Source: a virus
Direction: 5' to 3' (one strand)
IMG/VR virus record: IMGVR_UViG_3300047554_000160
Span: 1-54,230 of that record
Length of the DNA: 54,230 nucleotides
Positions 1,098 to 53,900 of the stretch are shown piece after piece. Made by a program: the position numbers and the translations under genes. The notes beneath the pieces are model-generated. The model saw nothing but the letters and a program-made list of their open reading frames with translations, did no database searches and had not been told where the DNA came from. Position 1 is the stretch's first letter, and each line of letters opens with the position of its first letter.

Positions 1098-6236
<5,139 letters not shown>

Positions 6237-6758
6237 TTAAATGAGTGAGAGCAGGATCTGCTCTTGCTCATACAGTACCTTTAGCTGATCTAGCGCCTCT
6301 CCATAGTACTTGGTTACACGAACTGCAAGGCCGCCTGCCTCTTTCCAGCCTTGACAATTATCAAGTCGGTCATCAACTAAGATATCACCAGGTTTGGTAT
6401 GATTGCGTTTGTCCTGACTATATGGACCAAAATGCACAGGAATATCTGGATAGCGCTCATGTGCCCACATTACTTTATCATAGTAGGCCCAATGGATATC
6501 ATTATAGTGCGGAACCGCAGTTAGAAATATCAATTCCCAACCTAGTTCATCACGAAACTTTCGAGCAAGTTCGACCAGCTCGTCGGCACGTTTCATTTTT
6601 GGTAGGTTACGGAATATTCGTTGATGGCTACGAATTTTTGCCCAGTCACTAGGCGGATAAGGTTTTTCTGGGTACTCAGAAACATATCCGACTAATTCGG
6701 CTGCACCTGCTTCCCAATCGGCTACAACGCCGTCCATGTCTAAGTAAATTGTTCTCAT
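6237..6758 (-). CDS. HAD-family 5'(3')-nucleotidase-like hydrolase
   Basis: A 173-residue protein opening with the HAD motif I D7-M-D9-G-V, in which Asp7 would be the phosphoryl nucleophile. It has FLTAVP (motif II-like) in the middle and the Mg-binding ILVDDRLDN (motif IV) near residue 127. Size and motifs fit the small phage and bacterial 5'(3')-deoxyribonucleotidase (NT5C-like) group, which dephosphorylates nucleotides during host DNA salvage. The exact substrate is inferred. Its 3' end abuts the fibre gene. A sigma70-like promoter lies immediately upstream, unlike the late motif seen at most neighbouring starts. Confidence 0.75.
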   Translation of the reverse strand: MRTIYLDMDGVVADWEAGAAELVGYVSEYPEKPYPPSDWAKIRSHQRIFRNLPKMKRADELVELARKFRDELGWELIFLTAVPHYNDIHWAYYDKVMWAHERYPDIPVHFGPYSQDKRNHTKPGDILVDDRLDNCQGWKEAGGLAVRVTKYYGEALDQLKVLYEQEQILLSLI

Positions 6759-6763
6759 AGTTT

Positions 6764-6791
6764 ATTATAGCATAAACTAAGAAAAAATCAA
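6764..6791 (-). promoter_or_regulatory. Sigma70-like promoter of the HAD gene
   Basis: On the minus strand TTGATT (6786-6791) and a perfect TATAAT (6764-6769) are 16 bases apart. TATAAT ends 5 bases before the ATG, so the transcript would be leaderless or nearly so. The -35 box overlaps the end of the upstream nucleotidyltransferase gene. Confidence 0.5.
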
Positions 6792-7474
6792 ATACTTAAT
6801 TGCTCATCTTTTAAATTGCGAACGGCGTCTATTAGCTTTCCTACATATCCGTCATTGCGTAGGCTTTTAAATGCAAGGTTGGCGGGATTCATTTCTCCGC
6901 TTTTATCTAGTCCTGCCTGCCGGAACGATCTCAGTAGATCTTTTACAGAGATACAGACGGAAAGTTCTCTAGTTGCTATTGCTTTGTCGATAATCCTTTC
7001 CCAAAGCTCAACTAATCTCATTACTTCTTTTTTATCGTATCCTGCCTTAATTGGTACTGGCTTTTTAAGCCATTCGCCGCGTACTACAGAGTAAGTAGAA
7101 CCAGTTACGGGCTCATCAACATCTTCTGCGTATAATTCTACAGGTACTCCGTGAATCGAAATATCGTGAGTTGAACGCCATAAATCTCTTTTAGTTTTAA
7201 ACAGTTGATCTATTCCCATATCACACTTAACTTTGTCATACGGAACAACAAGATGTAGATCTAGATCGGAATATTTGGTGTAGTTAAAATTTGCTTGACT
7301 ACCTGTAATAATAACATCCATTAATGTTACATTGATATCTAAAAATTTATAGTACTCTTTAGCAATCTTTAGTAACGCTACTCGAACATCAGATCGTAGG
7401 TGTTCCCCGTCCCAAATGTCTGGATTTAGTGTATTATGGATATCAATAGGATCAGTGAATTCAACAACGCTCAT
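6788..7474 (-). CDS. Nucleotidyltransferase of the pol-beta superfamily
   Basis: A 228-residue protein with the pol-beta superfamily signature GS (residues 58-59) followed by D70-L-D72-L-H. These aspartates bind the two metals that transfer a nucleotide to a substrate. A further acidic stretch (VELYAED) lies near residue 115. The C-terminal half is helical with no motif I recognise. Such single-domain enzymes are frequent in T4-like phages, but the target (RNA end, protein or small molecule) is not known. It diverges from the YqgE gene across 29 bases. ATAAATA precedes its ATG by 6 bases and no SD is visible. Confidence 0.7.
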   Translation of the reverse strand: MSVVEFTDPIDIHNTLNPDIWDGEHLRSDVRVALLKIAKEYYKFLDINVTLMDVIITGSQANFNYTKYSDLDLHLVVPYDKVKCDMGIDQLFKTKRDLWRSTHDISIHGVPVELYAEDVDEPVTGSTYSVVRGEWLKKPVPIKAGYDKKEVMRLVELWERIIDKAIATRELSVCISVKDLLRSFRQAGLDKSGEMNPANLAFKSLRNDGYVGKLIDAVRNLKDEQLSI

Positions 7475-7480
7475 ACCATT

Positions 7481-7487
7481 TATTTAT
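7481..7487 (-). promoter_or_regulatory. Late-promoter motif ATAAATA, leaderless spacing
   Basis: Reverse-strand ATAAATA lies 6 bases before the nucleotidyltransferase ATG at 7474, with no SD. It is paired back to back with the motif at 7492. Confidence 0.45.
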
Positions 7488-7491
7488 TTTA

Positions 7492-7498
7492 GTAAATA
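7492..7498 (+). promoter_or_regulatory. Late-promoter motif GTAAATA, leaderless spacing
   Basis: GTAAATA lies 5 bases before the ATG at 7504, with no SD. The predicted +1 coincides with the A of the start codon. Confidence 0.5.
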
Positions 7499-7503
7499 TC
7501 TGA

Positions 7504-8061
7504 ATGAGTAATAGTAGTTTAGCAGGACATATTTTAGTATCGCAACCTAGGAGCGAGGATCCTTATTTTTCTAAAAGTGTTATATTAGTAGCCAAGCACG
7601 GCCCACAGGGTGCATGGGGTATTATGATTAATAAATCAACACCTAACTTAACATTAGGCACAATAATGCAGGCAGTAGGGATTGATTCAAATAAACAGGA
7701 TAGAGTTTATGTTGGAGGGCCTGTAGATACACATAGAGTATTCATTGTTCATAGTATGGACTGGCAAAGTCACAATACTATACAGGTTACTAGAGATATA
7801 GGAATAACGAACGAGATGCAGGTGTTAGCCGCAATTAGCACCGGAGAAGGTCCTGCACTATATAGGACCTGCGTAGGAAGTGCAGGATGGGGACCGGGAC
7901 AATTAGACGGTGAATATAGAGGAGAGCCACCCTGGAAAACGGCAAATAGATGGCTAGATGCTCCTGCTACCATAGAATCTGTGTTTAGCCTTAGTCAGGA
8001 TGATCAATGGCAAAAGTGCATTGAATTAGTTGCACAACACAAAGTTTCTTCCTGGCTTTAA
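7504..8061 (+). CDS. YqgE/AlgH family protein (UPF0301, DUF179)
   Basis: A 185-residue protein matching the bacterial YqgE/AlgH family over its whole length. It opens with AGHILVSQP, then shows the conserved DPYFSKSVI, GAWGIMINK, VYVGGPV and YVG/CVGSAGWGPGQLDGE-type stretches and ends with a W-rich tail. Bacterial members are cytoplasmic and of poorly defined function; AlgH is a reported influence on alginate genes in Pseudomonas. A copy in a virus looks like a host-derived accessory gene. It is a lone plus-strand gene with its own late-type promoter motif, and its end overlaps the helicase gene by 4 bases. The family is clear and the role is not. Confidence 0.88.
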   Translation: MSNSSLAGHILVSQPRSEDPYFSKSVILVAKHGPQGAWGIMINKSTPNLTLGTIMQAVGIDSNKQDRVYVGGPVDTHRVFIVHSMDWQSHNTIQVTRDIGITNEMQVLAAISTGEGPALYRTCVGSAGWGPGQLDGEYRGEPPWKTANRWLDAPATIESVFSLSQDDQWQKCIELVAQHKVSSWL

Positions 8062-9503
8062 TCCTTTTCCGGACTAAAACTACTTAAAATATCCCTAACA
8101 CTTCTCATTGTAGGTTGTGCCTGTTTAGGTTTAGGCGCAGACAAACCTTTAGTCATATCAATTTCACCAGTTTCTGGATCTACATTAGTAGCAGTTACAA
8201 CACTGGTCTTTTTCAATCCGTCGATTAGCGCATTACTGGCCGCACTACGCTGTTGGCTAAAACTATTTTCTTCTTCGTCTCCAAGATCTTTGATTCTAAG
8301 ACTGTCGATATCAAATTCTAAGTCAAGTTTTTGTCCAACACCCGATGACGAACGTGTCTTCATAAACTGAATTTGATAACGTCCTCGCTCACGCATAGCA
8401 CGACTGGTAAAGATACCAATAACGTTGTCAGCAGTTTGAATCTTACTTAAACCGCCCGAAATGTGACTGTGATCGAATTCAACTTCTTCAACGGCAGCAC
8501 GGTTTAACTGAGCGGCAGTTACTACTACACATTGAGTTTCCATAGCTAGGTTACGCAACTCTTCCGAAACATATTTGTCTTTAACAAACAGGTCACTAGG
8601 GCTAACTTTAACACTTAATGGCATCATTAAGTCTAGGTAATCAACTAATAGAACATCTGGCTTCTTACCTGTTTTAACTTGATATTCTTTTAGGTAAGAT
8701 CTCAAATCATTACAGTTTTTGCCGGATGGTAGATACTTGATCTGCATTCCGCCTGCACGTTTGCCTGTAAGTTTAACCTTCATTTCAACATCATCAAGAT
8801 TCTTAAAGATGTCTTTTGATGCCACACCGGTTAGCATACTATCCACACGCATACCTACTAACTCTTCACTAAGTTCGAAGGTAAAGTAAATGACATTTAA
8901 GCCTGCGAGAGCAAAATTAACACCAAGATTAGCCAAGAACAAGCTCTTACCACCGCCCGAGCCAGCACACCAAATATTGAGTTCGCCTCGCTTGAAACCT
9001 CCATAGAGTTTCTTATCGATACTAGGGTATCCAGTAGATATTTGACCATTATTATCTTTCAATTTCATTAAACGAGCACGGGGATCTGCCCAGTAGTCTG
9101 TGCCCATGTCTTTGTTTAGACTAATCTGAATAGCGTCCTTGATTAGTTTTTCAACTGGACTGTATTCTCCCTTTTCCAGCATGTCTGCTGACTTTAGAAT
9201 AGCACGTTCCAATCCTTTGTGCCTACTAAAGTTTTCAAACTCATCCATTAACCAATCATAGTTTTCTTTGGGTAATGTTACAGATTGAAAGTCAGTTTGA
9301 CATGAAGCATTAACAATACTAACTTCAGGCATGACCTTGTAATCATCTACATACTTTGTGATGAAAGAGGATGCATCTTGGTATCTCTTGTCAAAGTTCT
9401 CTGGGTCAAAAATATTTTGACATCGAACAAAAGTCTCTGCATCGGATAGGAACATCTCTAAATAGAGTTTTTGCATGTCTGCGTTATAGTTAGGTTTCGT
9501 CAT
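8058..9503 (-). CDS. gp41: Replicative DNA helicase, DnaB-like (T4 gp41)
   Basis: A 481-residue protein with an N-terminal helical domain and a RecA-fold motor. Walker A is AGSGGGKS at residues 180-187, Walker B is VLLVDYLD near residue 283, and QLNRAA/ISGGLSKIQ sensor-like segments follow. It matches hexameric DnaB-family helicases and takes the place of T4 gp41, which unwinds the fork 5' to 3' and pairs with primase gp61. The start overlaps the primase end by 14 bases, the usual gp61-gp41 coupling. The tail after residue 420 is low complexity and rich in K, Q and P. Confidence 0.9.
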   Translation of the reverse strand: MTKPNYNADMQKLYLEMFLSDAETFVRCQNIFDPENFDKRYQDASSFITKYVDDYKVMPEVSIVNASCQTDFQSVTLPKENYDWLMDEFENFSRHKGLERAILKSADMLEKGEYSPVEKLIKDAIQISLNKDMGTDYWADPRARLMKLKDNNGQISTGYPSIDKKLYGGFKRGELNIWCAGSGGGKSLFLANLGVNFALAGLNVIYFTFELSEELVGMRVDSMLTGVASKDIFKNLDDVEMKVKLTGKRAGGMQIKYLPSGKNCNDLRSYLKEYQVKTGKKPDVLLVDYLDLMMPLSVKVSPSDLFVKDKYVSEELRNLAMETQCVVVTAAQLNRAAVEEVEFDHSHISGGLSKIQTADNVIGIFTSRAMRERGRYQIQFMKTRSSSGVGQKLDLEFDIDSLRIKDLGDEEENSFSQQRSAASNALIDGLKKTSVVTATNVDPETGEIDMTKGLSAPKPKQAQPTMRSVRDILSSFSPEKD

Positions 9504-10488
9504 CTTCTAGTGCTTCTAATTTCTTTTGATATAGTTTTATTTTTATCTCGTTAGTCTCTACATAGTGCAGAATACTGAATAAAGTATAAAGCCTGCCGTA
9601 TTTTTTTACAGCATCCGCAGAGTCCTTTATGTCGTCTTCCCACTGCGGTATCGACACTGCCCAGCCTTGTTCGAGTGCATATTGCACTAACTTAGCGCCA
9701 GGCTTATCTCTGTCAGGCAGTACAATAACTTTCTTGCCAAGGCGATTAATCCTAGCAATCTGAGTAGTGTTGGGCTCGTTAGTCATAATTGCCACGCCAT
9801 CTATAGCAATAGCATCAAATTGGCCTTCAACTACAATTACATATTCTCTAGAGTCAGTCTGGCGATCAACATTGAATACATATCCGCTTTGACTGTCTGT
9901 GAGGTATTTGGGCTTACCAGGTTTGATTTTACGCCCAGTATAGCCCACTACCACTCCGTCCTGATAGAAAGGGATCATCACTCGATCGCGGTACCCGTTT
10001 TCACTAGACCACATCCAAGGATACCAGTCAAGTTCCATTCCTCTACCAGTAAGATAATCAACTACTGCTATTACTTCATCATTTGGCTCAGCCTCCAGCC
10101 ATTCTAATATTGACCTACAGTCTCCCGGCAAAGTTCTGGGCTCTTGATGAAAGTTAATAGTGGGTTTAGCCACTGGTTGATCCTCTTTGGATCGCAATGC
10201 CTCAAGATTCAGTTTATTAATTTCATCACTTGGCATTCCCATCCAGTTGAATAAGCTCTTGGTATTCTTACTTAACAACCTTCCGGGTGTCCAGCCTGCT
10301 TTGAATCCACAGTTAAAACAATGATATTGGAATCCTTCGTTGCTGAACAGCACGCCACCACGCTTTCTTGTATCTTGATGATCTCCATTGTGATGGCAAC
10401 AGACTGCGTTAAAACTTATCCAGCCGCTAGGAGTTGTCTTCCTTTTAGGAGGCAAGAAAGTTTGTACGGAAGCCTGTATGAGATTCAT
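9490..10488 (-). CDS. gp61: DNA primase with zinc ribbon and TOPRIM domain (T4 gp61-like)
   Basis: A 332-residue DnaG-type primase. The N-terminal zinc ribbon has CCHH near residues 30-33 and C57-x2-C60. The TOPRIM core has VVEGQFDA (catalytic Glu) near residue 210 and LPDRDKPG (the Asp pair) near 250. It makes RNA primers for lagging-strand synthesis together with the helicase encoded directly downstream. The ATG at 10488 is preceded only by CTAAACTA, a degenerate version of the late motif, with no clear SD. A structural-type gene ends 9 bases upstream. Confidence 0.88.
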   Translation of the reverse strand: MNLIQASVQTFLPPKRKTTPSGWISFNAVCCHHNGDHQDTRKRGGVLFSNEGFQYHCFNCGFKAGWTPGRLLSKNTKSLFNWMGMPSDEINKLNLEALRSKEDQPVAKPTINFHQEPRTLPGDCRSILEWLEAEPNDEVIAVVDYLTGRGMELDWYPWMWSSENGYRDRVMIPFYQDGVVVGYTGRKIKPGKPKYLTDSQSGYVFNVDRQTDSREYVIVVEGQFDAIAIDGVAIMTNEPNTTQIARINRLGKKVIVLPDRDKPGAKLVQYALEQGWAVSIPQWEDDIKDSADAVKKYGRLYTLFSILHYVETNEIKIKLYQKKLEALEDDET

Positions 10489-11632: not shown

Positions 11633-12016
11633 ATGACCAGCAAGGACGAGTTTCAGAAAAAATTTCCGTTTATAACGTGTATTAAAACGTCAGAAAACGA
11701 GTATTTAGGCATCATTGTGAATCACGATGACAATGTCACCAGCATATACAACTATGCAGACATACGGACCGAAACACAAAAGCAACTATTCTTAGAAATG
11801 GGCGAAGTGTGGTGGTGGGAAAGTAATAGGAAAATTCCTATTAACATTTTCCTAAAATCGGAGATGATCGACTTCCGTCCGTTTATTAAGACATTTAACA
11901 GCAAGGACGTAGAAGTACTATTTGGACCTATAGTAAATCTAGGCGAAATTGCAGAAAAACGAGTTAAACGTAAAAGTATTCAGTTAGTTAGAAGTGTTAA
12001 GCGAAAGGGTAGCTAA
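11633..12016 (+). CDS. Conserved hypothetical protein, T4-like aquatic phages
   Basis: A 127-residue soluble protein with no signal peptide or membrane segment. It starts TSKDEFQKKFPFITCI, contains a striking VWWWESNRKIPINIFL stretch near residues 59-74, and ends in a Lys/Arg-rich tail. The pattern is reminiscent of a small protein common in cyanophage-type genomes, but I know no function for it. It is expressed from a perfect TATAAATA promoter, so probably late. Its 3' end overlaps the DnaE-like gene tail to tail by 20 bases. Confidence 0.65.
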   Translation: MTSKDEFQKKFPFITCIKTSENEYLGIIVNHDDNVTSIYNYADIRTETQKQLFLEMGEVWWWESNRKIPINIFLKSEMIDFRPFIKTFNSKDVEVLFGPIVNLGEIAEKRVKRKSIQLVRSVKRKGS

Positions 12017-35263: not shown

Positions 35264-35270
35264 TATTTAG
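35264..35270 (-). promoter_or_regulatory. Late-promoter motif CTAAATA of gp13, leaderless spacing
   Basis: Reverse-strand CTAAATA ends 5 bases before the gp13 ATG and lies 2 bases from the divergent motif of gp14. Confidence 0.6.
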
Positions 35271-35272
35271 CA

Positions 35273-35279
35273 ATAAATA
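35273..35279 (+). promoter_or_regulatory. Late-promoter motif ATAAATA of gp14 operon
   Basis: ATAAATA lies 7 bases before the gp14 ATG. Together with the gp13 motif it makes a 28-base divergent promoter unit with no room for leaders. Confidence 0.6.
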
Positions 35280-40441: not shown

Positions 40442-40840
40442 TTATTCCTCAACTGCATCTGAGTAATAGCTAGTGGTTTTTAAAAAATCGTATGCTTGCT
40501 CTACAACAGTCTTTGACGAGCCCATATCAATTGTCATCCACAGGTTAGTTTCGGTCTTAGTTTCAGCTCGAAGATCTGCAGGGATGTCAGTTGGATAAAC
40601 TCCGATTTGTGCAATAGGTAATTTACCAGCATCTCTTGCCGCTTTGTTATAAAATACCTGAACGCATACTCTACCATAATATCCTTTTTTCCACTGCCAG
40701 TCTGGGCAATTTGCAGGTCTAACTCCGCCCGGATCTGGTATATCTGTGGGTATCTTATGTGTTATAACATCGCTTACAACATGATACGCTTCGTCGGCGT
40801 CAATGCCATTGGCAAGTTCGTATCGTTTAATTAGAGCCAT
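40442..40840 (-). CDS. Conserved hypothetical protein after the fibre
   Basis: A 132-residue protein with a helix-rich start ([28 protein letters not shown]), a middle Pro-rich loop ([37 protein letters not shown]) and a C-terminal [12 protein letters not shown]. Its start overlaps the end of the giant fibre gene by 14 bases, suggesting co-expression and perhaps fibre assembly. No family recognised with certainty. Confidence 0.55.
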
Positions 40841-43800
40841 TTAATTTCCCTTTTAGTTCTTCGATTTCCGCTTTTAGATCCTTAATAGCTTGGATCAAAT
40901 ACGGTGTAATTTTGTCATATTTAACAGTTAGATAACTCTCGATGTCAGAATCTTTGCCGGCGCTTCTGCCTGCTTTGTTTTCAGCAACAGCAATTGGTAA
41001 AACTTCCTGTACTTCTTGAGCAATTAGGGCAGTTTCTGGCTGTCCTTCGTAGAACTCCTCGTTGATTTTAACAGCCTGTGCATTCCATTCGAAGCTAGAC
41101 GGTACTAGTCGATCTACTAGTGCTAGGCCAGAACCAGGTTCTAACGGCTTGATATTCTGTTTTAATCTACGATCAGACCAATAAGCTGTAACTTCGCCAC
41201 GAGCATATAAGTTGTTACCGCTGTGATAGATTCTCCAACCGTTACCCGAACGGTGAATACCACCGTCGCCGTCGTTCATCATCAGTGTAGAACCAGATGC
41301 AAAGTAAATTCCGTACCAGCCGTTACGAGTACCGTCCATGCGCCAGCTACCGTAGTCGCCGTTGTTTGGATAAAAGTGAGCTCCGTTGGTTCCGTCTGCG
41401 GCATACATACCTTGATAACCATAGACACCAATCCAACGGTCCATGTAGATGTAGTTACTACCGCCATTGACCTGCATAACACGACTACTCATGTCGTAGT
41501 CTGTGTAGAAACGCATACCTTCGTAACTTGGGTTAGCACCAAACTTTAGACCAGTGTGGAATGCAATTCTCAAGTCAGGGTATGGATAGCTCCAACCTCC
41601 ACTCTCACGATAGATTCTATAGGCTGTACTTTGATCGTTACTGAACGCAACACCAAACGGGTGATCAACGCTAACATCATAGTTGTTACGTAAGTAGAAT
41701 GTACCAATACCCCACATTCTAGACCATGTATTCATATCTACATAGTAGCCTGTGTCGTCTCTAGAATAACCAATATACCAACGTGCATCATCCATGTATG
41801 TTGTGCCATACAATTCTTGATAGCCGCCGTTAGTTCTTACACGCCAGTTACCTGCGTTATCTAATAGGCCCGAGTTCCACGATGTGTCACCGTAGAAGTA
41901 ACCCATAATGGTGCCTGCAAAACCGTTTCTTAAACGAATACCGCCTGCACCCGACTGACCAGTATTCCAATAGTTGCCTGCATCGCTGTACCAATGGTTT
42001 CCGTTGGCCTGATTATATAGACCTGTACTGTTGTTATTATTGCGGAACCAGCCGTTGTTGTATATGTTATTAAACAATACATCACTTTGACCATTGACTA
42101 CAAATCCAGGGTTATTAGATAATTGACTTAAACTTGTTAAGTTTGCACTATCCCAAATTGTTCGCCATGCATACCAGCTGTTTGACCAGCCTGTTCTATA
42201 ACGCAGGCCATCACCGTTACTAGCAGTATGCGAACGATACATTTGATAGTTGTGGTTATCACCTCTAAAGAATTCAACGCTACCGTAACTGTAGTTTCCT
42301 GGACCGTTTGTCCATGTACTACCGTTATTAATCTGATAGTAACCCATTTCGGCAGTAGCATCTCCCCATGAGTTCCAATCAGTTGCACTACCAACAGTAC
42401 CGTAGTATCGCATATATCCCGAAGAGATACCGCCGCTTGTAATAAATCCAGGTCCGTTAGTTAGCTGGCTTAAGTTGGTTAAGTTTCCGCTATCCCAAAC
42501 AGTATAACCAGTTCCTCCGCCATATGTGCTTCGATGGACATACATAGTACCGTTAGTCCATCTCCATTGCCAACCATAGCTGTTGTTATGGTGACCAGTT
42601 TCTCCAGAATTCATCATTAGAGTTACGTTACCGGCACCGTTACCTGGGAACTCCATACCTGCCCAGCTGTTACGTGTTCCTAAAACTCTCCAAGAACCGT
42701 AGCTAGCATCGTTAGGATAGAAGTGAGCGTTATTTAACGTACTGTATAGCCCGTGATAACCAGTAGTCTGTAGCCATGTATCTAGTTGATAATAAGCGTT
42801 ACCAAACTTTCCTAAGAAACCAGGTCCGTTAGTTAGCTGACTTAGGTTAGTTAAGTTGTAGTTGTTCCAAATTCTGCGCCATGTACCGTAGCTGCCGTTT
42901 TCAATACGACGGTTGTAAATCTCACCATCATCATAGAAGCTTGCGGCCCACTGGTTACCGTAGTTGTTACCGGTGTTAGTATGACGAACATGCAACATGG
43001 TGTACCATGTGCCTGTCGGTGTTCCGTTGTTATAGGCGTTATAGAATCCAGAGTTTAGAGCTTGTGTAAATCCTGTTTCAGTAGTCTTAGTGCTGTTATC
43101 ACCATAGACAAATCTGTTATAGTAGATGCCGCCTAAGTTATCAATACTACCGCTACTTGTAATATATCCCGGTCCGTTACTTAACTGACTTAGGTTAGTT
43201 AAGTTACCACTATCCCAGTTTGTAAATGCACTACCTCTTGTATAGATAGGACGGCCACTGTAATAGTTTAGATATAAATCGTAACCGTTAGCCGCATCAA
43301 TGTGCAGATTGCCGTTTGTAGCTGCAACAGTTGCTTTAGTTGCATCTGTACGTCCGTTGCCGCCGACAATTAAATCAGCACCCCAGCTCGAGTTAGGCCC
43401 TAGATATAAACGACTGTCACCTTGGAATCTAACATCTCCACTAACATGTAGTCTGTGGGTTGGATCATTGTAGTTAATACCTACATAACCATCAACTGGA
43501 TCGATAGTCATGCGTTCGATTGGTAAATCGGTGCTAGCTCCGCTAGTGCCAGTACCTGGCTTAGTTGCAAATACCAAGAAACTGCGCTCACTACCCGGTG
43601 TGTCGTGCAATCTTAGACCAATCCATGCTTGAGGACTTATGTTGTAACTTGTTCCGTCGTCATTTAATGTGCCGCCACTATAATTTAACAAGTGGTTAAA
43701 TGCAATACCGCCGTAATAGCTGTTTGCAGTTGTACCTCGTGTAGGTGCAGGGCCAACTTGTAACGCATAGGTATTTTGATCAATAGTAGTAGATCCTGTT

Positions 43801-46800
43801 CCTTCAGAGTGGAACATGTGGTCGCCGCCACGGAAATCAATTGCGCCTGTGTAGTACGCAGGAATATATCCAGGGCCGTTAGTTAGCTGACTTAGGTTAG
43901 TTAAACTGTAAGTAGTATGCGCTCTTGCGGCTGTAATAGGGCCGTTTTCAACAGTATCAAATGCAGTTGCAAAAGAAATTGCCCAGTCATCGTTCCAGTC
44001 AGTGTTAGTAAATGCGTTATAACCTGCTTGGAATTCAGTAATGAATACCTGCGGATAAGCCCAGCTGCCGCCGGTTTCGCCAATCCAGATACAGTTTCTC
44101 GAACCATCATGACCAAAACGGACATTTAGGTCGCCGCCGCCGTGCGTTGTTTGATATGCAAATACGTTATACCAGTTACCGGGTCCGTAGTTATAACCAC
44201 CAAGTTCAATTGTTCTACTTGTTCCTGCACTTCCGCCTGCATATTCGTAAATCTTTACGGTCATACGCATCATTGTGCTGGTGCGGAACTGTGGTAATCT
44301 AATCTTGATTGCGCCTGCTACACTGCTAGAACCAGTAGTGTATGCGCCGCCGCCTGGAGCATATACTTTTAAACCACCGTTGTTGTCAGTGAAGCCACCG
44401 TTGGTTGTTAATACATATTGGAATGTTGCAGCGCCGCCACCTGTTACATATCCAGGACCGTTACTTAACTGGTTAACGTTTGTTAAGTTGCCAGCATGCC
44501 AGATAACGTTTGTACCAACATACGGGTTGTAGCCGAATGTTGTTCTACCTGTACTTGCACTAACATCAAATGCGGCGTCTGCTCTGAATGCTACAGAACC
44601 TGTAAAACCGTTTCTTAATAAAGTAAATTGATTAGAATAACCTGAACCAGCTTTACCTAATAACCAAGAATCACCGCCGGTGTCAGCAGTAATAGGATAA
44701 TATACGCCTGCCCAACTGTTACTGCTAGAAGGATTAATTCTAATACCTTCACTCCAGTTGTTGCCGCCAGGAGTAATTGTAAGAGCAGGAGTTCCACTAG
44801 TACCAGCGGCTAAAGAGCTTCCGCTACTTGACCAAGTTGCCCAGTTAGTAATAGTTCCGCCACTAGTTGCCCAGGAGTTACCGTTACCAAAGTATAGTGT
44901 TCCATTAGCTGCTGTAATGACACTAGGATTGTTTGCGCCGCTACTGTCCTGGTTGCCCATCAATAAGCGTTGTGCTCCGGCAGTGTTTGTAATTCTAAAA
45001 TAATCTTGTACTGCACCAGTACCTGTTACATCTAATGTGTAAGTTGGGCTTGCAGTTCCTCCAACTCTTAACTTGCCGCCGCCGCTGGCTGCATAAACAT
45101 CGGCATTGACATAGTGGTTTAGATAAACTCCTTTGCCAGTTGTAGAACCGTCAATGATAATTTGACCTTCGCCGTAACCTTTGATGTTAGGAGTACCGCC
45201 TACCCTGTCTAGATAAAGAATATCAGTTCTATGATCTGTTGCATCATAAACAGCAGCAGAGCAGATATACCATGTTAAAGGACTTCCGCTAGACGGTGTT
45301 GGACTACCAGTGATATAGAAGAAGTGTGTTGAACTGAATGTACCAGTGTTACCGGCAATTACAACATAGATGTATTCTTCCCATTTACCTGTACCAACGT
45401 TGTTAGTTGCCCAGTATGTCTGACTGTTAGAACCAACTGCGTTACTTGCCCAGTTAAGTGTATAACCTGATGGTATCTTTGCTTTAAATCTTGCAACTAA
45501 AATGGCGTTGGCTCTTGTAGCTACACCAAAATAGAATCCACCAAATCCTGGACTTTGTCCGCTGCCTGTATGCTGTACCTGTAGGACATAACCGCTAGTT
45601 GTTGGAGTACCAGTTGGACTAGAAATTCTAGTGATAGCAGTCTGGCCAGAACCGTTATTATCATAAACACTTATACTGTTAGAACCAGATAAGAAGTTTT
45701 CGTCTAGATAACCTGCATGTTTCTTACCTTGAGCGCCAAGAGCATGGAAAGCAATTGTCGGTGCTCCGCTTTCTGTGGAATCTGCATGTTCCCAGTTTGT
45801 CTTGCTGTCAAATCTTAGAGCGCCGCCAACGTTTAAGTTAGTACCATCAAATGTTAAGTTAGCAGAACCTGCAAATACGTTACTGCTATCTTTATAGATA
45901 ACTTGATTTGCAGAACCTGCGCCAATACCTGCACCAGATTGTCCTGTTGCGCCAATTTCACCCATTGCTGAGAACGCAACGTTAGTTAGTGCTACACCAG
46001 TTGTATATAAAGACGCATCTAAGTATAGTGCAGAGCCGATAGCTCTAGCAGTTGTTTTTAATAATGTACTATTTTGCCAGTATCTTACATTACCGCCATC
46101 GTAGGTAATTGTAAAGATATCGCTAGTTGCATAAGATCCGCCTGTATAAACTGAGCTAGCACTTTCGTAAATTGTTACAGTACCAGCATTAAAATAGATA
46201 GCATAGTCTAATGTATCAAAGCTAGCACTGCCTGTTGGATCGGCATTAAGACCGAACATTGCACGACCAGTTGTGTTATTAACACTAGCACTGGCCATTG
46301 CTCCTCGAACAAATCCTTCTGCAGAGTAAAAATGAACGTCCCAAGCGCCGTTAGTTCCGCCGGTCTTGGTAAATGTTGTATAGTTGGTTGAGCTAACACC
46401 TGTGCCTAGAACAGGAACCCATGCACCTGCACCAGTAATACCAGTGGCACCTGTACTACCTTGTGGTCCTGTTGCGCCCGTAGTTCCGCCTAATCCTGAA
46501 GGACCTGTTGCACCTGTACTACCTTGGAAGCCTGTAGCTCCAGTAGCACCCGTTGCGCCAATTTGTCCAGTAGCACCTGTTGCGCCGATAGCACCTGTGC
46601 CGCCGTTTGCACCAGCAGGTCCTGTTGGTCCAGTTGAGCCAGTACTACCTTGATTACCTTGGATACCGGTTGCACCAGTAGCACCTGTGCCGCCACCGGA
46701 ACCTTGAACACCAGATGCACCAGTAGGTCCTGTTGCACCAGTAGGTCCTGTTGCACCAGTACTTCCAAACATACCTGTAACATCAATAGTCCAGTTTGCG

Positions 46801-47915
46801 TATGGTCCAGCGCCGCTTGTGCCGCCAACATAATCGACGTTAACCGTAATTGCTAGTCCTACAATGGCAGTGATTGTACCTTCCATGTAGTTTGTAGGAA
46901 TAGCAGGATAAACTACACGCACACGCATACCAGTACTGAATGCGTTTGTTTTATTAACTGTCCAAGTTTTACTGCCAGTAGTATTGGTATTAGATGTAGA
47001 ACTTGTTACATCATAGCCTAATCCAGTAGCACCTGTTCCACCAACACTACCTGCAGAACCTGCCGCACCAGTAGCACCTATTTCACCAGTAGCACCTGTA
47101 GCACCTTGAGGTCCTGTAGCACCTGTAGTTCCTGTTAAACCAGTAGCACCTGTAGCTCCAGTAGATCCTTGATTACCTACACCACCCGACGGTCCTGTTG
47201 CGCCTTGAGGGCCTGTAGCACCAGTTGCACCTCGAGCACCAGTTGCACCTACACCACCAGTTGCACCTACTTGTCCTGTGGCACCTGTAGCACCTACTTG
47301 TCCTGTTGCACCTGTAGCACCCGGATTACCTTGACCCCCAGCACCACCTGTTGCACCAACTGGGCCAGTAGCACCAGTTGCACCTGGATAACCTGTAGCA
47401 CCCTGCGGACCTGTAGCACCTGTAGCACCTCGCAAACCTGTAGCACCTGTTGATCCGTCTTGTCCTGTGGCACCAGTGGCACCAGTGCTTCCAGAAGGTC
47501 CTGTTGCACCAGTACCTCCGCCACTGCCACCTGCACCAGTTGCACCTTGTGGTCCTGTAGCACCAGTGGAACCTACAGGGCCGGTTGCACCTGTAGCACC
47601 TCGAGGACCTGTTGCGCCTGTACTGCCTGTAGCACCAATTGGGCCTGTGGCGCCAGTTGCGCCTTGAGGGCCTGTAGCACCAGTTGCACCAGTAGCTCCA
47701 TTTTCTCCATCGGGACCAGTTGCACCTGTAGCACCAGCGGCTCCACTAGCTCCTGTACCAGGTGCGATAAATGCCAAACTACCTTGTGTATCGGCTAGAC
47801 CTAATAACCAACCGCTAGTAGTTGCACTCTCGGGTAAGGTTAGAGTAACTGTTCCTGTTGTAGGAGATTTTAAGGTTATATTACCTTGCTGACTGGTATC
47901 TAAATTAATTGCCAT
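40827..47915 (-). CDS. Giant collagen-like tail fibre with knob repeats and S74 domain
   Basis: A 2362-residue fibre. After a 50-residue lead ([19 protein letters not shown]) come two collagen-like blocks (about residues 54-295 and 380-492) around one beta module shared with the 1098 fibre. The middle has six copies of an [14 protein letters not shown]-type repeat in knob-like units of 100-150 residues, rich in Trp, Tyr and Gly. Two similar GSWR...GTRN segments occur near the end. From about residue 2247 (SDRRLKQNI, candidate S2247/K2252 dyad) an S74 peptidase/chaperone domain and coiled coil end the protein. It should be a trimeric receptor-binding fibre released by self-cleavage. ATAAATA lies 21 bases upstream. 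Confidence 0.9.
46437..46775 (-). repeat. Collagen-like triplet repeat block, second of the 2362-residue fibre
   Basis: Uninterrupted Gly-X-Y triplets encoded on the minus strand by nine-base units close to GGTGCTACT, following the shared beta module. Confidence 0.8.
47030..47757 (-). repeat. Collagen-like triplet repeat block, first of the 2362-residue fibre
   Basis: About 240 residues of Gly-X-Y triplets ([12 protein letters not shown]) near the N-terminus. The codon pattern is like that of the block at 2413-3180 on the other strand, so recombination between the two genes is conceivable. Confidence 0.85.
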
Positions 47916-47943: not shown

Positions 47944-50900
47944 TCAGGTAGAAACTTCAACAGTTTCAACTTTTGCAACGAACCTTACTGTTGTTCCTGC
48001 AAGGCCTACTGCACGAACACTTAATCCGCCATTTACTGTATCTGCAACAAGATCAATATCAAATGCTTGACTTGCCCAGATCTTCGTTTTGTTATATCTC
48101 TTTACTACTGTAGTGTTTGCACCAGCATATCTAGAGATAGAACCGTTAAATTCCCATGCTCCTTCATCATCTGATCCTACAGACTTTGCAGTTACAAATA
48201 CTTTAAACATGTAACTAGAATTATCAGGTAAAATTACTTGATTATTTGTTGAAGCAACAAGTCCGTTAGAAGTTAAAACTGTAGTTGCTGTAGTTGCTGT
48301 AGAACTTCTTAAAATATATGTTCCTGCCTGAGCATCTCCTGCGGCAGCAAATATACCACTTGCAACAACATTTGCATCAACAATATTTCTTGTTGTTGCA
48401 CCAGTACCTATTACTAGATTTTCACCAACTGCAAGACCGCCTGCAATTACTACCGCAGCAGATTGTGTAGTTAATGCACTGGCTGTAGAACTAAAGGTTG
48501 TTAAAGTGCTAGCAACTACTAATTGTCCATAACCGTCAGTTGAACCAATATTAACATTAGATACTGAACCTGCGCCGCCATTAGTTGCAATATTAACAGT
48601 TCTAGTAGTTCCTCCTAATATTGCACCTGTAGATAAATCTAAAGTATTAGCAGAAGTTGTATTGTTCAAACTTGCACTTGTGCCACTGTGTGCAATATTT
48701 CCTGTAATTGTTAGGTCTTCAAAGGAAGTAACGTCTGTGTCATCAATGATTGCGTTGGTGCCCAACGATGTTACTGATGCAGACCAGTTGCTATCTTTAA
48801 TTATTGTAGGAGTTACAAACTGATTTACAACGCTTGCAGGAATTTGTTCAGTAATTAAGGTCCAAACTCTACCACCGGAAACTGTGGATCTTCTCCAATA
48901 CTCGAATTCACCTGTAGAAGAGTTATAAGTAACTGTATGGTTGGCTGCAAGACTACTGATTGCGGCTTCAGCATTTTCAGCTACCCAATAAACTGAGCCT
49001 GCAACAGTGCTGACAGTATCTCTTACATAACTTACCCATAAAACATCGTTGTCCATGTTATCACTATAGACAACACTTGCAGATGCTTTTACAGCACTCT
49101 TAATTTTGAATGTAGTACTATCTCCTACATTAGGTAAGGACCATGATAAACATTTAATCCACTGGTTAGTACCCGGACTTACGCCAGCTGTTTGACTGTG
49201 TTCGGTATATGCTTGAGCGCCAAAGATGCTACCTTCGACTACTAAGTTTTTCTTAATGCTTGCGCCGCCAGCGATTTGTACTGCACCAGTAGCAGTGCTT
49301 GTTGCTTCGCTAGTATTAGCAAAATATACGATCGAGGTAGCAGTTGCACCGCGTTGAGTTAAGCTGTCAAGAGTTGCTGTACTCCAGATTGTAATAGAGC
49401 CAAAGTTAGAACTTACTGCGGTATCAGTGCCGGCATAAATCTGGCTTACACCAATGCCACCACTACCTAAGCTAGATGTTGTTAGAACTTCTAGGCCTGA
49501 GGCATAAATCTTGTTATTAACATACAAGTCGCCACCAATTCCGACTCCGCCAGCAACAGTTAAAGCACCACTTGCAGTGTTAGTTGCGCTGGTTGTATTA
49601 ACTAATGCTAGACCACCAAATTGTGCAAGGCCCCATGTACCTGTATTTGAGAACAGTGCTGGGAATTCTTGTGTTCCGCCTGGATAGATATCAGTCTTAT
49701 AGACTAATTTCTTAGATGCATTGTCCATTCCTAAGAAGGAATGATTGTCATATTCGGTATTGACAGATGCAGTAGTACTGTAGTGCAGTAAAATACCTCT
49801 GTCAAGGCCATCATTTACACCTAAGTTTGCATTATCAACACCTGCGCCAATACTTATAACAGGATCAATTACAACAGTTTGTGTAGAATTTACATACGTC
49901 CATGTACCATAGACCTGTAAGTTTCCATATACCGCAGCATTTCCGCCAACAATTAAATTACGAGCAATACCGACACCGCCACTAACAATCAATGCACCAG
50001 CAGTTGATGTGTTAGAGTCAGTTGTTGTAGTAATGCTAATAGTACGATTAGTAGTGTTTCCTCTTTCAGTTACTGATTGTAATGTAGAAGTATTCCAAAT
50101 TACAACAGAGCCTGTACTCCTACTTACAGTTGTATCAGTACCTGCGGTAATAGTTTGAACACCAAGGTTAGTAAATGTAACAATACCTGTAGCAGTACTT
50201 ACACCTAAATATTGTGTGCCTACTGCGGCAATAACACCGGCGTTATTGATTGTAAAACTTGTAGCAGTTCCTACACCAACTTCGTCTGTAATAGTAATAC
50301 CCGGACCAGCAGTCGGATTAACGCTGGTTACAACACGATGTCCATCGTCATAAATTTCAGCTGCACGAACTTGTTTGCCAACACCTAAACCACCGTAGAT
50401 AACAACAGCACCATCTGTGACTGTGTTACTTGCAGTTGTATTTTCAAAAATTGCCACAGCAGCCGGACTACCGCGTAGTGTGCTAGTGATTAGAGCAGTA
50501 TCAATAGTTGCTTGCCCGCCAATGCCAACACCACCTAGCACTACTAAAGCACCGGACGATGTAGAATTAGATACTTCTGCATTATTAATAACAACTATAT
50601 TAGTTGTAGAATTACCTCGATCGGTTACTGTTTGAAGAGTATCTAGAGAACTTACAATTACAGCACCAGTTGTGGTATTAACTCCAATTCCACTACCGCC
50701 TTGAATACTTGTTACACCGTAAGTACCTAAAGAAGCGTTGGTAATTACAAGACTACCGTTAGAATAAATGTTAGCGGCCTTAATGTCGCCACCAACTTCT
50801 AACTGTGCAGTTGCAGTTGCAGTGTTAATTCCTACAAAGTTTGTACCAGTTGCTCCACCGTAAATTTTTACTACCTCATTAGCACCGATTGCTAACGATT

Positions 50901-53900
50901 GTGCGCCTGCTGGTAAGAACTGGAAATATCCTGTAACACTCGAACCTGTCCATAACAGGTCTAAAGTTCCGCCTTCTGGATCAAACCAAGATTGTAACCA
51001 ATTTGTTCCATTAACTGTTAATGCACTTCTACTGTCAATTGCTCCGATAATCGGGCTTGACATAAAAGTTACATATTCATTAACGTATAATTTCTTGCCT
51101 ACATATAGGCCGCCGTCAATACCAACTGCTTTAGAACTACCAGATATAGTTGCTTGAGAAGTATTAGTAAAGTTAATAACGTAAGGAGTGGTATTTCCTC
51201 GATATGTTACGCTTTCTAATGTATCTGTTTCAGTAGTTAATACTTGAACACCGTTTGAATAAATGTTGCCTGCATAAACACTGCCACCGATGCCTACACC
51301 GCCTGTAACAATTAACGCACCTGTATCTGTAGAAGTACTTGATGTGGTATTTGTAATATTAATTGCAGCAGTAGTTGTTGAACCTCTGTTTGCAACGGTG
51401 TCTAATGTAGAAGTATTCCAAACAACTATAACACCTGTGCTAGTGCTTACTGCGGTGTCTGTACCTGCATTTATTGCTGTTACACCTAGACTTCCAATGC
51501 TTGCTTCTGTAACAACTAAACTACCGGCTGAATATAAGTTACTTGCCCACAGGTCTCCACCAACTCCGACACCGCCCGATACTATTAACGCACCACTAGT
51601 TGTGCTAGTTGCCTGTGTCTGATTTGCAAAAGTTAAAGCAACGGTAGTTGTTGAACCTCTTTGAGTTACAGTTTGTAAAGTAGATGTGTTATTAATTGTA
51701 ACAACGCCTCGGCCGGGATTAGTAATATTACTGTCAATACTGATATCAGTTCCAGCAAGAGCTTGAGTAACAACATACGTTCCGATAGTTGCAGTAGAAA
51801 CAATTAAACCAGTCGAATCAAAATATTGGTTGGCATACACATCACCACCAAAACTTGCACCGCCCTCCACCTGCAGAGCTCCAGTATCAGGTAATCCGCC
51901 AGGTGTTGCATCATTTAATACTAAACTACCAAACTTTGCAGAGCCCCAGGTGCCAGAATTAATAAACTGCGGTATGTACTCTCCAGCGGCGCCAGTAATA
52001 ACTCGTGTCTTATAGATAAGAGTTTCGGTATTGTTGTCCATACCTAAGAAACTTCTTGTGTAAGAACTTGTTCCAGAACTTGTATTGTAATGGAACAATA
52101 GACCTCTATCATTACCATCATCAACTATTAGGTCTGCGCCGTCAGTTGCAATACCTAAATCTAGTACTGGGTCAGTGATACTAGTCTGTGTGCTATTGAC
52201 TACTGTAGTATTACCACGAACAACTAAGTCACCGACTACGGTTGCATTGCCGCCGACCCAAAGGTCTTTAGCCATTCCAACGCCACCACTAACAACGATA
52301 GCACCAGTAGTAGTCGAAACTGCGTTCTCAACACTGGTTGCTAACAGTTGTCCAGTGAAATTTAACTCTCCATTTACCTGTAGATCACTTTCAATAGTTG
52401 TTAAAGTGCCGGCAGGATCTAAAGTTAAGTTACCACTGATAGTTTGAACTCTACTACCTGCAAATAATAATTGGCCAACCTGAATACTTGTTGGTTGTAA
52501 TACGCTGGTATTAACGCCGTCGCTGATTGTTAAGCTAGATAACGGACCTAATCTAAAGTTAGCAGTACCAAAATCTACGTTACCGGTACGTTGATTGATA
52601 CGGAATTCAGGACCAACACGGAAATCACCTAAATGATCAACTGTTTGGAAATAAACTTTTGCGCCGTTTAATCTTACAACTTCGTTTGCTTGAACAGCTA
52701 GCGAAGGATCGTTAGTCATATCCTTGCCGCTACCTACATAACTCATGTTGAAAGCAATTGCTTTGAAGTCAATGCCTTCGCCATCTGTATAGATACCGTA
52801 GTTACCATAGCAGGCCGCAGATCCGATACAGCGTAATTCGCCGCCAAATTGACGATAATCTGCTAAACTAATCTGTTGAGCACTTGCAACTACTGTTGCC
52901 GTATATGTAGCAGTAGTAGTATAAACGTTTTGACTACCTAGACCGTCGTCTGTAAAACTTGTGCTTAGGTTAGCGCCGTCGCAGTGTAATAAAACAGTAG
53001 TACTAATATCACTAGCATACGCACTAGTCGGAGGTGTAAATGATCCTGTATATCTAGGTGTAGTACTTACTCGAACTTCATCTAAATAACCTCTTAAACT
53101 TAGACTTGGAGTAGTCGAGTAACCACCAATTGTTAAACTATCGGCATTACTGATGCTAGCAGTTGCACTAGTTGCTACTTCTAAGTTACCGTTAATAAAC
53201 AATCTGTTGGTATTGTTTAGATCACGGCTCATCATTACATGATACCAAGTACCTGTACTTAGAGTATTTGTAGAAGTGAATACTGTTGTACCGTGTTGTC
53301 CGACTAGTTTGTTGTTAGAGCCAATGTATAGACCAAATGCTGTTGCGGCAGTTGTGCCTTTATTAACAATATATTGTGTTCTTCCATTTTGTGTTAGGTG
53401 AACCCATGCTTCAACAGTGTATGAACTAAATCCATACTGCATGTCTGCATCGCTAACAATGTCAAGAAGGTCGCCATCGGTACTAAAATACGCTGCGCCT
53501 GTACCAAATTTACGTTCAAAGCTACTGATAACAGTATTTCCATAAACGTTGATTGTCTTTCCTGTACGGTCTTGAGCTTCTACGAAGCCAGATGCTTTAC
53601 CTTGTAAGTAAATGTAGTCAGGTGTAACTTCGTCAATTAGACCGGTGGCTAATAGTGTGCCTGTAGAGCCTACGTAGTGTAGATAATGTCCTACAGTAAA
53701 TGTTCCTGTTGAGTTTGCAAGACGTAGTCTTGTACGTCCTTCGCCGCCCCAACCTGTTGTTCCGCTTTCGCCAATAATTGCTTTATCAGCAAAATAGCTA
53801 AAGCCGTTTAGTAATTCAACCCTAGTACCGTTCTTGATATGAACAGCAGTAGAACTAGGAACAATAAATGTTGCTTCGTTAAATAAAAATGCTGCTTCGA

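Follow-up and report, generated by a model that had tools for sequence, protein, structure and literature searches.

The window analysed here, a whole 54,230-base virus record that is a genome fragment, carries a phage-type yqgE gene (DUF179/AlgH-like) at 7504..8061 on the plus strand (185 aa, ATG start). Its product is a real YqgE/AlgH (DUF179) protein, and yqgE is a nearly constant gene of a large uncultured T4-related phage clade with contigs of up to 354 kb. We propose that this YqgE is phage-domesticated and inherited with the replication block of the clade, that it would be expressed late from a leaderless mRNA, and that it may serve an envelope or lysis role. The package as a whole is given a probability of roughly 0.55 and is compatible with the rival functions weighed below. 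YqgE is very common in bacteria, and its function is not settled.

YqgE in the window and across phages

The initial annotation named the product of 7504-8061 a YqgE/AlgH homologue, and profile and structure searches agree. The protein matches PF02622/DUF179 in Pfam with an E-value of 4.9e-34 (118 bits, against a gathering cut-off of 27). It scores at best 113.9 bits with the NCBIfam YqgE/AlgH equivalog models, under their curated cut-off of 198, and has no PHROGs family at E ≤ 0.001. The AlphaFold2 model (pLDDT 91.2, 26-row alignment) matches the eight YqgE-family PDB chains listed with Z 12.1 to 24.3, and the next listed row has Z 4.4. The best structural match is 2ew0, with a Z of 24.3 and an rmsd of 2.2 over 171 residues.

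The flanking genes at 6237-6758, 6788-7474 and 8058-9503 are all on the minus strand. The description of yqgE as a single plus-strand gene among minus-strand genes holds locally and fails across the window, as 1098-6236 and 11633-12016 are plus-strand as well. The divergent partner (6788..7474, minus strand) belongs to phrog_36119, for which no function is named; two cyanophage relatives annotated as nucleotidyltransferase are the source of the label nucleotidyltransferase-like. A DnaB-like replicative helicase (8058..9503, minus strand) is convergent with yqgE, with overlapping 3' ends, and is adjoined by a DNA primase (9490..10488, minus strand; phrog_47, 1.9e-37). Elsewhere in the window, 1098-6236 encodes a protein of 1712 aa in which long GATG repeats resemble collagen; by eye it is probably tail fibre-like. 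At 11-1024 a late-type box precedes a gene of the radical SAM family (Pfam 7e-08), which has a weak QueE-like match in PHROGs, and two very long minus-strand ORFs at 40827-47915 and 47944-53442 encode 2362 and 1832 aa.

Searches of IMG/VR gave 10 YqgE loci with the YqgE query, 20 with the alignment query and 40 with a broader query (31 to 100% identity), and PF02622 finds a match in 20/20 clade records. A helicase-seeded IMG/VR scan, with loci chosen by helicase alone, covered the best 80 of at least 545 confirmed loci, i.e., down to about 67% helicase identity; the six seed helicases all came from yqgE-bearing contigs. In this best-80 set, yqgE is found in 68/80 loci overall. Where the flank is at least 3.5 kb, yqgE is present and convergent with the helicase in 46/46 of these loci, which are not 46 independent cases since some helicase loci are near copies (L131-L133 among them). 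A gene this constant is not the accessory gene it was first taken for. Among the best 80, loci with 0.7 to 3.5 kb of flank carry yqgE in 18/20 cases (L084 and L152 are without it) and those with less than 0.7 kb in 4/14. L084 has neither yqgE nor the nucleotidyltransferase in a 3.07 kb flank, and to judge from this contig yqgE may be dispensable. At L084:8300-10285 the next gene after the helicase is 5'-nucleotidase-like and by eye resembles window 6237-6758.

A tblastn search of 50,697 annotated phage records gave four matches, the same four with each of four phage YqgE proteins, and no convincing phage-type yqgE was found among them. Two were rejected as phage carriers: Acinetobacter phage MD-2021a (CAKLQH02) has a recN-yqgE-yqgF neighbourhood that looks bacterial, and MT839622 looks bacterial by its translated ORFs, judged by eye. 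Both (L012, L013) are labelled phage in the annotated collection although their DNA looks bacterial. The other two, known by their names alone, are a second MD-2021a record and one named as a Salmonella enterica strain. At the sensitivity of tblastn, no yqgE was seen in the cultured T4-like phages of this collection, and the gene was correctly placed outside the T4 core. In the accessible text of the literature on YqgE, AlgH, UPF0301, COG1678 and DUF179, we found no description of a phage yqgE.

An old phage lineage beside the replication genes

In a maximum-likelihood tree of 94 rows, 57 phage YqgE proteins fall on one side of a branch and 37 bacterial ones on the other (UFBoot 98/SH-aLRT 91; the branch is in 98% of 200 bootstrap trees). 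The rows are 160-260 aa long and were thinned to less than 75% identity for phages and less than 65% for bacteria. The bacterial rows come from the phyla of Methylophilus and Marinimicrobia only, plus three plasmid-borne copies. A scan of bacterial genome contigs gave 13 YqgE loci (10 Methylophilus, 1 Moraxella, 2 Marinimicrobia). The first-branching phage YqgE in the tree as drawn, L073:3967-4512, is found beside an HNH endonuclease; no further protein within 7 kb on its contig has a match in the window.

The window's branch carries a 7-residue insertion (residues 140-146, GEPPWKT; codons at 7921..7941, plus strand), delimited by an alignment gap. G140, P143 and W144 are found in 25/25 rows of the window branch and group 2, and the stretch is a gap in 37/37 bacterial rows. 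In group 3 these three residues are found in 35-58% of rows. The spacing from the QL motif to the following W is 8 residues in 66 of 69 bacterial rows (two unmatched, one gave 22). Among 107 phage rows, it is 15 in 41, 9 in 21 (here the pattern stops early at PWT) and some other value in 4, while 41 are unmatched, having lost QL.

The initial annotation implied a recent acquisition from a host and offered a phylogeny with bacterial YqgE as the check. That DUF179 is widespread (it is present in 115/120 genomes sampled from the Methylophilus phylum) would favor a recently captured host accessory gene. However, the best bacterial identity found to window YqgE is about 34-36%, whereas the first 20 phage loci reach 51-100%; none of the 37 bacterial rows has the insertion, all sampled phage copies are on one branch, and the place beside the helicase is fixed. 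The phage-only branch and the fixed synteny led us to reject recent capture, which we regard as barely credible. Within the two bacterial phyla sampled, the phylogeny gives the outcome that the initial annotation had named as refuting recent capture, a long-standing lineage of phages alone without recent origin from a host; on sequence evidence, phage YqgE is an old and separate lineage.

Convergence with the helicase is found in 68/68 two-gene loci among the best 80 of the at least 545 helicase loci, and in 56/68 of them the two 3' ends are at most 5 nt apart. This layout would suit an antisense effect, in which late yqgE transcription into the convergent helicase and primase genes damps them and the RNA counts for no less than the protein. 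Against this, yqgE lies more than 200 nt from the helicase in 6/68 loci of the same set, and strong protein-level selection shows that the protein matters. In 13 phage yqgE pairs with aa identity of at least 0.88, dN/dS is 0.017-0.097 (17 pairs were kept within the synonymous-difference window, and the four distant pairs gave 0.27-0.31 at a dS of about 1.3); these low values in close pairs indicate that the YqgE protein is kept by selection. Antisense damping of this kind is improbable.

A nucleotidyltransferase relative is adjacent and divergent to yqgE in 54/56 matches, and 39/46 well-flanked loci of the best 80 carry both genes. These counts, together with L084, which lacks both in its 3 kb flank, could indicate that YqgE and the nucleotidyltransferase-like protein form a functional pair, such as an enzyme with its partner or a host-modifying module. 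But 7/46 well-flanked loci of the best 80 have yqgE without the nucleotidyltransferase nearby, and the joint absence is one contig. Nucleotidyltransferase relatives are present in 45 annotated phage records, none of them among the four with a YqgE match, and a shared promoter alone can account for the co-location. We consider a functional pair distinctly unlikely. Inheritance of yqgE with the replication block is part of the reading we prefer.

Late-type promoter boxes and the predicted leaderless start

A late-type promoter box, GTAAATA (7492..7498, plus strand), ends 5 nt before the yqgE ATG at 7504, at the distance first reported. It is back to back with the late-type box of the divergent gene, ATAAATA (7481..7487, minus strand). 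The late-type promoter attributed to yqgE is real, as one half of a pair shared with the nucleotidyltransferase gene. Shuffles are expected to contain 0.09 copies of the back-to-back arrangement TATTTA-N(2-10)-TAAATA, and the window contains two. The second one is found at 35264-35279, between a head-tail adaptor-like gene (minus strand) and a structural gene (plus strand).

The gap between TAAATA and the start codon is 4-7 nt in 40/57 dereplicated phage yqgE genes and exactly 5 nt in 29/57. The other 17/57 fall outside the 4-7 nt range, and in some of them (L082, L097, L138) the chosen ATG looks misplaced. The inverted pair TATTTA-N4-8-TAAATA is present in 40/57 upstream regions of the same set. 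Among bacterial yqgE genes, 3/69 have TAAATA within 45 nt. The base preceding TAAATA is not fixed in the phage yqgE promoters: 29 have T, 19 have G, 4 have A and 1 has C.

Other genes share this layout. In the window and 12 related loci, TAAATA ends 4-7 nt 5' of the ATG in 42/274 genes of at least 100 aa. Permuted hexamers on the same 274 genes gave 0-7 for 11 permutations and 17, 22 and 33 for three more, which we read as shifted copies of the TAAATA motif. Within the window, 10/32 TAAATA sites are followed, after 5-7 nt, by the ATG that starts an ORF of at least 60 aa. The start codons of these ten predicted leaderless late genes are at 1024, 7474, 7504, 11616, 23248, 24846, 29313, 35258, 35287 and 38865, and the 5-7 nt gap leaves scant room for a Shine-Dalgarno site. 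In G005, a 151 kb relative with 141 genes, the box stands at 4-7 nt in 16 genes and at 15-45 nt in 17. A Shine-Dalgarno-like sequence is found in 2/16 near-box, 13/17 far-box and 45/87 other genes of G005. Permuted hexamers in this genome scored 8 (ATAAAT), 7 (AAATAT), 4 (ATAATA), 3 (AATAAT) and 3 (ATTAAA), compared to 16 for TAAATA.

Among the near-box window genes are some that match families of tail tube, large terminase, structural and head-tail adaptor proteins. Their common promoter layout would be in keeping with YqgE as a virion or assembly component, but the bacterial relatives are found in non-phage operons, and we regard such a role as a long shot.

The T4 late promoter box spans -13 to -6 (PMC1524935), and a 5-nt gap would place the A of the yqgE ATG at +1. 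If T4 geometry applies, the near-box mRNAs are predicted to begin at AUG and to be leaderless. The gp55 family (phrog_234) is found in 6/6 clade contigs of at least 132 kb, G005 among them, by a profile that also finds matches in 7/14 control genomes. No gp55-family sigma was detected in the 54 kb window or in 3/9 clade contigs, all of 107 kb or less. Phage transcripts are described in a remark as often leaderless, yet AR9 leaders are 26-491 nt long (PMC5312081). Start-site data for the clade were not found in the literature on T4 late transcription or PA5oct transcription.

Late timing and a leaderless start are quite likely for yqgE. In our proposal, host RNA polymerase with a gp55-like phage sigma would fire late in infection from the back-to-back TAAATA boxes, into yqgE in one direction and into the nucleotidyltransferase-like gene in the other. 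With its box 5 nt before the ATG, the yqgE mRNA would begin at the AUG. The box position also yields a sharp prediction that lends itself to testing: leaderless transcription of late genes in T4-related giant phages.

Candidate functions and comparison with known systems

GGPV, G125, W129, QL and E137 are common to window YqgE and bacterial YqgE. Out of 27 bacterial near-invariant residues, the window branch keeps 75% on average and group 3 keeps 52%; at the Cys, V79 and A177 positions the window branch keeps none. The near-invariant bacterial Cys (36/37 rows) is Ala30 in window YqgE and is absent in 14/14 window-branch rows. The protein has two other Cys residues, C123 and C172. This loss counts against a redox sensor of the kind proposed for Pseudomonas AlgH, where an algH mutant is reported to be hypochlorite-sensitive and AlgH is called a potential redox sensor (PMC7950407). 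A redox role for the phage protein is highly improbable.

Group 3 (31/57 tree rows) has diverged further, with retention of 6% at F22, 10% at V74, 13% at L151 and 0% at Q133. The model of one member, L123, has a pLDDT of 89.3 and a Z of 24.1 to 2ew0. A surface changed on a kept fold, as modelled, suggests a changed partner in this sub-clade. Given the residue loss in group 3, YqgE function may not be the same across the clade.

The window branch, with the YqgE fold and most of the bacterial near-invariant residues apparently kept, probably engages the same partner or pathway as bacterial YqgE. An extra, phage-tuned dose of YqgE would then support envelope or proteostasis homeostasis as virions build up, and premature lysis would be delayed or guarded against. 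A late envelope/proteostasis factor that holds off premature lysis is the most likely function in our assessment, although it is put forward tentatively and at well below even odds. Against the L-like lysis proteins of the ssRNA phages MS2, KU1, Hgal1 and PRR1, high fitness scores are reported for ten E. coli genes in addition to waaQ and galE, and yqgE is one of the ten (PMC10229422). That result comes from an overexpression screen with bacterial yqgE, and the authors name indirect effects as the simplest idea (PMC10229422). Also on the side against our reading, E. coli carrying a frameshift in yqgE is reported to be viable (PMC12075407). In the accessible part of a Pf4 paper, algH appears only in a list, 2.27-fold down (PMC9602442).

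It is also conceivable that phage YqgE redirects late proteolysis by binding a ClpC/ClpA-type unfoldase of the host, in the role of adaptor or anti-adaptor. Of three Arabidopsis DUF179 proteins, two were found together with plastid CLPC1, one of them enriched in the trap, and adaptor or anti-adaptor roles are named by the authors as possible for the CLPC1 set (PMC8889267). The third was no interactor (PMC8889267), and the plastid proteins could be substrates. Among loci with a blastp match, median identity to the window is 37% for YqgE, the lowest of ten block proteins compared, vs 61% for the primase and 73% for the helicase. Such divergence fits a host-facing role, but weaker constraint could also explain the fast change, and we found no bacterial Clp link. 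A Clp adaptor is unlikely, if worth keeping in view. That phage YqgE diverts an envelope or regulatory process of the host, as first suggested, is conceivable.

Returning to the domesticated late YqgE that we prefer, a stronger joint statement can be made. YqgE would be a core phage-specific factor; the late programme would run partly from gp55-type AUG-start promoters; yqgE and the nucleotidyltransferase gene would form an ancient bidirectional leaderless pair; and in one sub-clade the conserved surface would have been rebuilt while the fold was kept, a sign of an arms race against some target in the host. Taken jointly, these claims have somewhat less than an even chance of being right. If true, the arms race would reveal the binding partner of YqgE, and a clade that keeps yqgE late-type-promoted and fast-evolving would offer a new handle on YqgE contacts.

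Among the records listed, the nearest helicases of cultured phages, at 48-52% identity, are those of the jumbo phages Pseudomonas phage PA5oct, Agrobacterium phage Atu_ph07 and Sinorhizobium phage Phosso. PA5oct and Phosso have a gene annotated as primase directly before the helicase. All three differ from the clade in that YqgE was not found in their complete records at E ≤ 1, in a search without its own positive control. The only viral structural match to window YqgE at E ≤ 0.001 is A0A6J7WKK4 (TM 0.91 by query, 26% identity), known by its deposited annotation as 'COG1678 Putative transcriptional regulator' of an uncultured Caudovirales phage.

Window YqgE shares family and fold with bacterial YqgE/AlgH (UPF0301, DUF179, PF02622). 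It differs in that the phage branch is separate and the window branch has the insertion at 140-146 and is without the near-invariant Cys. In several bacteria seen, RuvX neighbours yqgE, as in the yqgE-ruvX operon, and a Methylophilus control (G021) gives a match beside its yqgE; RuvX/YqgF was found in 0/9 clade contigs, which are fragments. The promoters resemble the T4 late promoter (TATAAATA, gp55/gp33/gp45) in the TAAATA core, the late-type genes downstream and the gp55-family sigma in long relatives. Unlike TATAAATA of T4, the base before TAAATA is variable in phage yqgE promoters. A further difference from T4 is the presence of two gene classes, one in which +1 would fall on the AUG and a far-box class whose members mostly carry Shine-Dalgarno-like sequences.
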